Positions 13,355 to 61,622 of a stretch of 64,000 nucleotides of DNA are shown here, piece by piece. The stretch's first letter is position 1; each line of letters begins with the position of its first letter. Source of the stretch: an uncultured Coriobacteriaceae bacterium (GTDB taxonomy: Bacteria > Actinomycetota > Coriobacteriia > Coriobacteriales > Eggerthellaceae). The stretch lies in contig CACXMZ010000006.1 in the NCBI GenBank assembly GCA_902768975.1, forward strand, positions 186,001-250,000, read 5' to 3'. The notes beneath the pieces were generated by a model. That model was not told the DNA's origin. It worked only from the letters and a program-made list of their open reading frames with translations, and made no database searches. The position numbers were made by a program, and so were the translations under genes.

Positions 13355-14989
13355 ATGCCTGAAACATATTCAAGCAACGACATAATCAATGCCTTCGCGG
13401 TTGCGGGGCGCACGCTGGCGGAACGCAAAGAAGAAGTGAACCGTCTTAACGTATTCCCCGTACCCGACGGCGACACGGGCACCAACATGAGCCTGACCAT
13501 CCAGTCGGTAGTCGACAACCTGGCGGCCCTGCCCATTGGCTCGTCCGCTGAAGACATTCGCCATGCCATTACGACGGGTGCCCTTATGGGCGCACGCGGT
13601 AATTCGGGCGTTATCACGAGTCAGATTTTGCGCGGCCTCTGTGAAGGCATGGAAGGGGCAGAAAGCTTCGACGTGGCTTCCCTGGAAAAGGCCTTTGCCC
13701 AGGCGCAAACCACGGCTTTCCAGGCGGTGCGCAAGCCCGTTGCAGGCACCATCCTGACGGTTTTGAAGGACTCTGCCACCGCTGCAAAGCAGGCGCGTAA
13801 GAAGAAGATGAGCATCGACGACGCGCTTACTTATATTGTTGGCGAAGCTTACGCGAGCGTGCAGCGCACACCCGAGTTGTTGCCGGTCCTGGCTGAAAAC
13901 AACGTGGTGGACGCCGGTGGCTTTGGTCTCGCCATTTTGCTGGACGCTTTCGCAACGGCTCTTATTGGCCGCGAAGCACCCCTGGGCGACGAACTGGCCG
14001 CTTCCCGCACGGCTGCGCCCAAGGTTGAAATCGAACAGATTAACGACTGGGAAGGTTCGCAATACCGTTATTGCAACGAATTCTTGGTCGACTCGAACAC
14101 GCTCGACATAAACGAAGCCTTGGAATTCTTGGCAACCATGGGCGACTGCGAACTCTGCGTTGGTGCTGCCCCGAAATTCAAGGTGCACGTTCATTCCAAT
14201 ACGCCCGACAAGGTGCTGGCTTACTTCCTCGAGCGCGGCCAGATTTCAGAAGTGTTTATCCATAACATGCAGCTGCAAAGCGAAGAACGGAGCGCCAAGA
14301 TTGCGGCGGACGCGCAGGACGCACCCCGTAAGGCACTCGGCTTTGTGGCGGTTGCAGCGGGCGAAGGCAATGCGAAGATTCTCGAAAGCCTTGGCATTGA
14401 CGTGGTGGTTTCCGGCGGGCAGACCATGAACCCGTCCACCCGTGACCTGCTCGACGCCGTAGACAAGACCAACGCCGACGCGGTCATTATCCTGCCGAAC
14501 AATTCCAACATCATTCTGGCGGCCAACAGCTGCGCAGAAGTTTCCAATATTCCGTGCGCGGTGGTGCCCACCAAGAGCGTACCCCAGGCTTTCGCGGCTA
14601 TGTTTGCCGTGGACGAAGAAGCTGGGCTGGAAGAAAACGTGGAAGCTATGGCAGACGCTGCGGCTGAAGTGAAGACGGGCGAAGTGACTCAGGCCATTCG
14701 CGACAGTCACGACGCCCACGGCAACCCCATCGCCAACGGCGACACCATTGGCATTGCCGACGGTTCCATTGAGGCAGTGGGGAAGAGCACCGAAGAAGTA
14801 ACCTTGGACCTGCTCGAAAAAATGGAAGCCGAAGACGCCGACACACTGACCATTCTGGCAGGCGAAGGTTACGCCGACGACGCCTTTGAAGCACTGGTTG
14901 CCCAGATCGAAGAAAAGTTCGACGACCTGGAAGTGGACGCCCACCGCGGTGAGCAGCCTTTGTACCCAGTACTTTTTTCATTAGAATGA
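13355..14989 (+). CDS. fakA: Fatty acid kinase catalytic subunit FakA-like (DhaL/YloV family)
   Basis: 544 residues. N-terminal DhaL (DAK2) ATP-binding domain with NVFPVPDGDTGTNMSLT, metal-binding Asp cluster and GARGNSGVITSQILRG; middle domain ending near residue 310; C-terminal domain related to FakB-binding regions (VVSGGQTMNPSTRDLLDAV, then ILPNNSNIILAA). With a FakB partner it phosphorylates exogenous fatty acids for phospholipid synthesis; no fakB is in the window. The last codons lie within a 14-bp perfect hairpin that may end the transcript. Upstream is the Asp23-like gene. Confidence 0.92.
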   Translation: MPETYSSNDIINAFAVAGRTLAERKEEVNRLNVFPVPDGDTGTNMSLTIQSVVDNLAALPIGSSAEDIRHAITTGALMGARGNSGVITSQILRGLCEGMEGAESFDVASLEKAFAQAQTTAFQAVRKPVAGTILTVLKDSATAAKQARKKKMSIDDALTYIVGEAYASVQRTPELLPVLAENNVVDAGGFGLAILLDAFATALIGREAPLGDELAASRTAAPKVEIEQINDWEGSQYRYCNEFLVDSNTLDINEALEFLATMGDCELCVGAAPKFKVHVHSNTPDKVLAYFLERGQISEVFIHNMQLQSEERSAKIAADAQDAPRKALGFVAVAAGEGNAKILESLGIDVVVSGGQTMNPSTRDLLDAVDKTNADAVIILPNNSNIILAANSCAEVSNIPCAVVPTKSVPQAFAAMFAVDEEAGLEENVEAMADAAAEVKTGEVTQAIRDSHDAHGNPIANGDTIGIADGSIEAVGKSTEEVTLDLLEKMEAEDADTLTILAGEGYADDAFEALVAQIEEKFDDLEVDAHRGEQPLYPVLFSLE

Positions 14990-14998
14990 AAAAAGTAC
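14969..14998 (+). terminator. Hairpin overlapping the fakA stop codon
   Basis: Perfect 14-bp stem GTACTTTTTTCATT / AATGAAAAAAGTAC with a 2-base loop (AG). The fakA TGA lies in the right arm. It is A/T-rich with no trailing T-run of its own, so a terminator role is tentative. A fold-back repeat starts immediately downstream. Confidence 0.45.
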
Positions 14999-37631: not shown

Positions 37632-37649
37632 GGTCTCATAGCTTTCTTG

Positions 37650-37680
37650 AAAGGGTCCGAGCAATCGGGCCCTTTTTCTT
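37650..37680 (+). terminator. Intrinsic terminator of ppdK
   Basis: 9-bp stem AAAGGGTCC / GGGCCCTTT (one G-T pair) with an 8-base loop, followed by TTTTCTTTT. Confidence 0.88.
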
Positions 37681-37683
37681 TTA

Positions 37684-37856
37684 TTCCGCTGTTCTGCCGT
37701 ACAGCGGAATTATCGATGTTGCGCTTTAATCTGCTGGCACTCTAAGCCCTCCGTGCTCCGGTCACGCACCAAAGTGCGCTCCCTTCGCCAGTCGGGCTTA
37801 TTGCGCTCAGCAGATTAAATGCTCACTGACTCTTCGACCACCTACGATTTAATCTT
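37684..37856. repeat. Fold-back intergenic element (copy d)
   Basis: Starts with a hairpin TTCCGCTGT / ACAGCGGAA (37684-37708), then outer arms TTTAATCTGCTG (37725-37736) and CAGCAGATTAAA (37808-37819), then AAGCCC / GGGCTT and a GCACCAAAGTGCG tip. Nearly identical over its length to copy f at 52.3 kb. The tail TGCTCACTGACTCTTCGAC carries the -35 of the next gene. Confidence 0.85.
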
Positions 37857-37861
37857 ATAAT
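37833..37861 (+). promoter_or_regulatory. Promoter of the glutamate-synthase-like oxidoreductase gene
   Basis: TTCGAC, 17 bases, TATAAT. The -35 lies within the conserved tail of fold-back copy d; the -10 lies just outside it. Confidence 0.55.
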
Positions 37862-52263: not shown

Positions 52264-52430
52264 TGTTCCGCTGTTCTGTCGAACAGCGGAATCATCGACG
52301 TTGCGCTTTAATCTGCTGGCACCCTAAGCCCTCCGTGCTACGGTCACGCACCAAAGTGCGCTCCCTTCGCCAGTCGGGCTTATTGCGCTCAGCAGATTAA
52401 ATGCTCACTGACTCTTCGACTACCTATGCT
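52264..52430. repeat. Fold-back intergenic element (copy f)
   Basis: Near-duplicate of copy d: hairpin TTCCGCTGTTC / GAACAGCGGAA (52266-52291), outer arms TTTAATCTGCTG (52308-52319) and CAGCAGATTAAA (52390-52401), AAGCCC / GGGCTT, GCACCAAAGTGCG tip, tail TGCTCACTGACTCTTCGAC. The first hairpin differs from copy d by paired changes. Confidence 0.85.
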
Positions 52431-61455: not shown

Positions 61456-61622
61456 TATTCCGCTGTTCTACGAACAGCGGAATTGTTGACGCTGCGCTTA
61501 GTTTTGGGGCCTATCTTGCCCCTCCAAGCCTTCGTCGTTGCACAAAGGCAACTTCCTCAGGCTTTCGCGGCAATTTAGTGCCCCAAAACTAATGCTCGCT
61601 GACTTACTACGCCAACCTAGGG
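61456..61622. repeat. Fold-back intergenic element (copy i)
   Basis: Hairpin TTCCGCTGTTC / GAACAGCGGAA (61459-61483), outer arms TTAGTTTTGGGGC (61498-61510) and GCCCCAAAACTAA (61580-61592), inner GCCTT / AAGGC, tail TGCTCGCTGACT. It separates the ATPase gene from the binding-protein gene of the same transporter. Confidence 0.8.

Follow-up and report, generated by a model that had tools for sequence, protein, structure and literature searches.

In the attC sites of integrons, structure is more conserved than sequence. These sites are hairpins, and it is their folded DNA that a recombinase recognises (PMC3053210, PMC11641012). REPs are hairpins of 20-40 bp that bear a GTAG tag, have RAYT (TnpA-REP) transposases and often provide or abut stop codons (PMC3733652). 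In CGTC-tagged REPs and in RPE, palindromic repeats lie in frame inside protein genes, and the CGTC class has no dedicated transposase (PMC3733652, PMC10969869).

The element described here lies at 37,684-37,856 of a 64,000-nucleotide stretch of DNA (the window; G000:C6:186001-250000) from the genome of an uncultured Coriobacteriaceae bacterium (G000; 1.89 Mb in 10 contigs). On balance of the available data, it is an even call whether this is a new dispersed palindromic DNA element of the Eggerthellaceae, akin to REP and RPE, whose palindrome is preserved either because folded DNA is under selection or because template switching repairs it.

Architecture of the element and its copies

The family unit runs from hairpin 1 through a GACG(C/T)TGC linker and the nested hairpin 2 to a conserved tail, the whole measuring about 170 nt (Table 1). 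A sequence-only reading of the window had proposed a fold-back element at this place, and both its paired outer arms and its folding bear this out, as the stretch 37684-37856 reaches z -4.8 as DNA and -5.8 as RNA, equalled by 0 of 200 shuffles; the same reading overlooked hairpin 1 as a constant part of the unit, as well as its location directly behind gene ends. Hairpin 2 is of near-constant length, 113-119 nt in nearly all linker-to-tail units, while their sequences are very different. An isolated pair joins linker and tail (columns 8/122 of the alignment of 55 copies), being CG in 46, UA in 6 and UG in 2, and the tail pattern is present in 6 of 6 genomes of the genus, its reversed control giving 0-1 matches per strand. 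In a catalogue of 68 copies the hairpin-1 stems are mostly 9-13 bp long, with arms that differ among copies yet pair within each copy; those of the 15.0 kb copy (GTACTTTTTTCAT/ATGAAAAAAGTAC), for example, are entirely unlike those of the 37.7 kb copy. Hairpin 2 is not followed by a T-tract, and no intrinsic terminator was called within 37684-37856, the terminator lying upstream at 37649-37676. In the 37.7 kb copy, the tail also gives rise to a promoter-like match (TCGACC-16-TATAAT, 37834-37861) upstream of the next gene, at about the level of shuffled sequence.

Table 1. Positions of the element's parts, its further copies and the two other fold-back families in the window.
Feature	Start	End	Strand	Details and basis
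Hairpin 1 (TTCCGCTGT..ACAGCGGAA)	37684	37709	+	9-bp stem, 8-nt loop; strand folding
Hairpin 2 unit, type A core	37715	37829	+	covariance model match, 61.5 bits; alignments
Conserved linker GATGTTGC, consensus GACG[C/T]TGC	37715	37722	+	C/T covaries with tail G/A
Outer variable arm, 5' side, TTTAATCTGCTG	37725	37736	+	
Middle stem, 5' side, TAAGCCC	37743	37749	+	strand folding
Innermost stem-loop CGCAC-CAAA-GTGCG	37765	37778	+	strand folding
Middle stem, 3' side, GGGCTTA	37794	37800	+	strand folding
Outer variable arm, 3' side, CAGCAGATTAAA	37808	37819	+	
Conserved tail TCACTGACTCTTCGACCACCT	37823	37843	+	pattern search
Copy, type A	15001	15114	+	covariance model; hairpin 1 at 14969-14998
Copy, type B, flanked by rpmF (L32) and plsX	20131	20244	+	covariance model
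Copy, type A	52297	52411	+	near-identical to 37.7 kb copy; hairpin 1 at 52266-52291
Copy, type B, partly decayed	59236	59349	+	covariance model; also found in G004, reduced to a remnant in G005, absent from G001
Copy, further core variant	61488	61602	+	hairpin 1 at 61457-61483; end remnants only in G004
Second family	19537	19718		shared core CGCTGTTCGTG..TCACTGG..TCATGCGCTCTCG..GGCAACAGC..GAACTCACGACATCG
Second family	39846	40026		same shared core
Third family	52446	52636		23-bp perfect inverted arms

Four core types are known (A, B, C and D). Nine elements of the window had been read as one family with completely different outer arms; the covariance model unites those at 15.0, 20.1, 37.7, 52.3, 59.2 and 61.5 kb, whereas those at 19.5, 39.8 and 52.4 kb have different cores. 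The statement on the arms holds for most copies, each of which pairs within itself, but not for the copies at 37.7 kb, 52.3 kb and one place on contig C2, which are 96-97% identical, arms included, and have unrelated neighbouring genes. Composite arrangements also occur: at C2:1632 a type A unit adjoins a type C unit of which the 3' remnant is left, and tandem tails at L011 and L021 resemble leftovers of earlier units.

The second family is made up of a constant core of about 135-150 bp between perfect inverted repeats of 16-25 bp that are unique to each site, a layout that recurs at about a dozen further loci, several of them between convergent open frames and with stop codons inside the arms. 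In the third family the arms are likewise unique to each site, and the core is 96-98% identical to copies elsewhere in G000 and in G004, where the match to the 52.4 kb element lies near the orthologous place on the opposite strand. These two families fit the earlier description most sharply. All perfect hairpins of the window with arms of at least 11 bp and a loop of at most 25 nt belong to one of the three families. Upstream of groES in G004 (L104), a perfect hairpin of about 27 bp stands where G000 holds a third-family copy, and a short hairpin related to it is found at the rpmF/plsX site of G004.

Covariation of the arms and spread among the Eggerthellaceae

Among 55 aligned copies, 93.4% of the stem cells hold standard pairs, compared with 72.7% after shuffling and 36-52% after sliding, and changes on both sides occur in 25 of the 35 pairs, with some 410 double-changed cells in sum against some 30 single-changed ones. 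The covariation score was reached by 0 of 500 shuffles, and mixing the outer arms across copies lowered Watson-Crick pairing from 85.5% to 38%. Loci of other genera are 96.0% paired (31 matches, the same places being read 20 times in sense and 11 times in antisense), in rows that were aligned by the model and are biased towards it. The arms thus covary, as the sequence-only reading had expected, and copies elsewhere are numerous rather than few, at least 28 of them matching one core model in G000, by a census of searches and fetched stretches.

With blastn, 21 matches were obtained in G000 and copies were also detected in 5 of 5 other genomes of the genus, with one marginal match only among 25 genomes outside it. 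This genus-only estimate of the range was misleading and has been superseded: by a covariance model built from 55 type B copies, the unit is present in 34 of 48 genera of the family (89 of 119 genomes), and each of these genomes carries between 1 and at least 31 copies. The arms differ in 20 copies from other genera, which retain GACGCTGCG as the linker, a nested hairpin and CTCGCTGA, nearly all of these copies having a hairpin 1 upstream. Rfam 15 has no match in the window, and a lax search (E 1) of ten copy-bearing loci gave none near the gathering score. A literature search on such repeats in Eggerthella or Coriobacteriia, outside which most subscription journals lay, returned nothing relevant.

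Position relative to genes and variation at orthologous sites

Copies sit in sense orientation just past stop codons, or behind RNA genes. For the genus, where open frames of at least 240 nt and copies with enough flank were counted, a same-strand stop codon precedes the linker by 28-45 nt in 24 of 42 distinct copies, against 5 at the mirror position and 4% at random positions; the same holds for 16 of 20 distant copies. Other copies follow tRNA genes (L022, L024) or a 5S gene read from sequence (L010), or lie near a tmRNA gene (L216), and operons also hold some, those of groES/groEL, rpsQ/rplN and grpE/dnaJ among them. The names of these genes were assigned by reading the translated sequence. 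In copies that have no hairpin 1 (L013, L015, L016, L107) the outer arm extends into the last bases of the gene, and arms enter the stop-codon region of the host at groES (CAGGTTTAG/CTAAACCTG), at rplX of G005 (GATTAG/CTAATC) and at rpsQ (TAAT/ATTA). Such overlap is the outcome expected of fold-back copying, selection or chance being possible in each case.

Orthologous sites differ in both presence and type. Between groES and groEL, the element is found in G000 and G004, where it also provides the stop codon, and the site is cleanly empty in G001 (CAGGAATAACAAC) and G003 (CAGCAATAACAAC), with no evident target duplication and no hairpin at the empty sites. The rpsQ/rplN copy of G000 is absent from G001 and G004, and the rplX/rplE copy of G005 from G000. 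Within dxr, an in-frame copy is of type D in G000 and G001 and of type A, with the same junctions, in G005, G003 being empty (L049 180-298, L134, L135). At C4:50936, G000 and G004 carry type B and G005 carries type A; G003 has a remnant and G001 is empty. At rpmD/rplO, one unusual hairpin 1 that overlaps the stop codon is followed by type B in G000 but by type A in G001. A further full copy lies inside a gene at L051. Partial copies consisting of hairpin 1 and linker only are seen within coding sequences at L020 and L056, apparently in the same reading frame as the dxr copy. Beside a type B copy, between secY and adk in G001 (L115), there is an insertion of about 2 kb with an open frame resembling a secreted protein.

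Search for a mobilising enzyme

The Y1_Tnp profile (PF01797) has no match in genome G000. In relatives, no element was found to flank Y1 genes in 38 loci, the single match scoring 16.5 bits, and many element-rich genomes of the family have no Y1. A Y1/RAYT transposase was therefore rejected as the mover, as it is absent from G000 and unflanked by the element in relatives. Relatives within the genus do encode REP-transposase-like Y1_Tnp proteins of about 250-290 aa (L123-L130), which the element does not flank.

Maintenance and origin of the palindromes

Where pairing is under selection in RNA, G-U should be tolerated and A-C should not. In the 12 variable outer pairs of the 55 genus copies, G-U was counted 17 times and A-C 21 times, though decaying copies would dilute a G-U excess, and in the type B alignment one position (column 43/86) is fixed as U-G; in the outer pairs of the 20 distant copies, 234 of 240 are Watson-Crick, with 3 G-U and 1 A-C. 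A cruder mismatch count on 14-nt arms (G-U 13, A-C 56) was dropped, since a C/A juxtaposition that is fixed at the inner arm end enters into it, and a tRNA wobble control carries little weight, being too small and based on ARAGORN brackets, which hold allowed pairs only. Since G-U shows no excess over A-C in the variable stems, DNA-level maintenance is favoured over wobble compensation in RNA; the wobble test, which is suggestive only, suits such maintenance together with the pattern of double changes. The choice between compensatory evolution and a copying process that rebuilds the arms, as posed by the sequence-only reading, is the right question, and a DNA-level process is favoured, though not proven, by the few wobble intermediates and the swaps of hairpin-2 units.

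Exchange or mobility as DNA is indicated because near-identical copies lie at unrelated genes, groES sites are cleanly empty and hairpin-2 types are swapped. The element would move or be exchanged as DNA, probably by way of a single strand that folds. Its arms would stay complementary since only foldable copies get copied, and/or since template switching during replication uses one arm to rewrite the other. Gene ends would be tolerated or targeted sites, and hairpins formed in RNA may incidentally affect 3' ends. This explanation, the best available, is countered by the lack of a linked Y1 transposase, by the lack of an evident target duplication at groES, and by the unpaired loop and tail motifs conserved throughout the family together with the strict sense orientation, which also fit a functional RNA. 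In a further reading, which is possible but tentative, these would be a family-wide class of self-renewing fold-back DNA elements, recognised by structure, exchanged behind genes and with arms recopied from each other plus adjoining host sequence, so that the palindrome would outlast the turnover of its sequence. The second and third families, whose arms of 16-25 bp are unique to each site around a constant core, would be the clearest cases. On the other hand, the same arrangement past stop codons and tRNA, 5S and tmRNA genes, the conserved unpaired motifs, model scores of about 90-114 bits in sense against 25-41 in antisense, and the copies inside operons can be explained by a structured 3'-UTR RNA element, co-transcribed with the upstream gene, whose fold would shield the mRNA, process it or bring about partial termination, the covariation then coming from selection on the RNA fold. 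This is somewhat unlikely, as the variable stems have no G-U excess over A-C, close species differ in presence at a given gene, one copy lies in frame within dxr, and hairpin 2 has neither a T-tract nor an Rfam match.

Replication template switching at quasi-palindromes might also rewrite the arms as a purely mutational process, without selection or an element-specific enzyme. Such switching is documented to make and repair perfect stems (PMC8794818), double changes far exceed single ones, and the arms of copies that have no hairpin 1 run into the stop-codon region of the host; as a complete account it is nevertheless improbable, leaving unexplained the copy number, the conserved loops, linker and tail, the length of 113-119 nt and the recurrence throughout the family. 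Ordinary intrinsic terminators, into which conserved cores were inserted or from which they derived, are a very improbable source. A T-run hairpin does occupy the usual place of hairpin 1 in one C1 copy, the 20.1 kb copy, L022 and L024, and a terminator lies upstream of the 37.7 kb copy, but T-runs are missing from most hairpins 1 and the long perfect hairpins of the window are all elements of these families; insertion into such terminators was rejected as a candidate, given that most copies have no T-run and the empty groES sites no hairpin.

Significance and comparison with known systems

A covarying 115-nt hairpin that a search by structure finds in about three quarters of the family's sampled genomes, is essentially invisible to blastn beyond the genus and is absent from Rfam represents a substantial unrecorded component of these genomes. 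Covariation is usually taken as proof of a functional RNA, and the few wobble intermediates seen here suggest that it may arise at the DNA level. The old question of how palindromes stay perfect is directly testable in this family, which is common in the gut, since each genome holds many copies, orthologous sites can be compared and some relatives are in culture.

Several known systems share part of these features. Integron attC sites have conserved ends that differ from those of the element, to which no integrase or cassettes have been linked. As for MITEs, no target-site duplication is seen at the empty groES site, and a search of the Y1 transposase type led to no parent element. The likeness to template-switch hairpins lies in perfect stems that arise or are restored when one arm serves as the template for the other, although these have been described for RNA genes and not for a dispersed element exchanged among sites (PMC8794818). 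In the coding palindromes of Nematomorpha mitochondria, perfect inverted repeats likewise persist within genes, but they form no dispersed family with a conserved core (PMC6649704).

The sequence-only reading had held that this is not a known REP/BIME layout, which stands for the layout itself, with no Y1 in the genome or beside copies, but passes over the traits shared with REP and RPE. As with REPs and BIMEs, the palindromes are dispersed, near gene ends and sometimes paired; in contrast, a 115-nt nested hairpin is combined here with a separate hairpin, the arms are free in sequence, no Y1 transposase is linked, and no constant GTAG was found at the foot of 68 hairpins 1 with flanks. The likeness to CGTC-tagged REPs and RPE extends to the linker, which reads CGTC on the reverse strand, and to in-frame copies inside genes, dxr remaining open in G000, G001 and G005. 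However, CGTC lies a few nt off the hairpin-1 stem instead of abutting it as in CGTC REPs, which also have a CCA-like tail, the stems are mostly 9-13 bp as opposed to 8-9 bp, and the lineage is another one with a larger nested fold. In conclusion, layout and scale are new relative to the libraries searched, and the kind of element is that known from REP and RPE elements.
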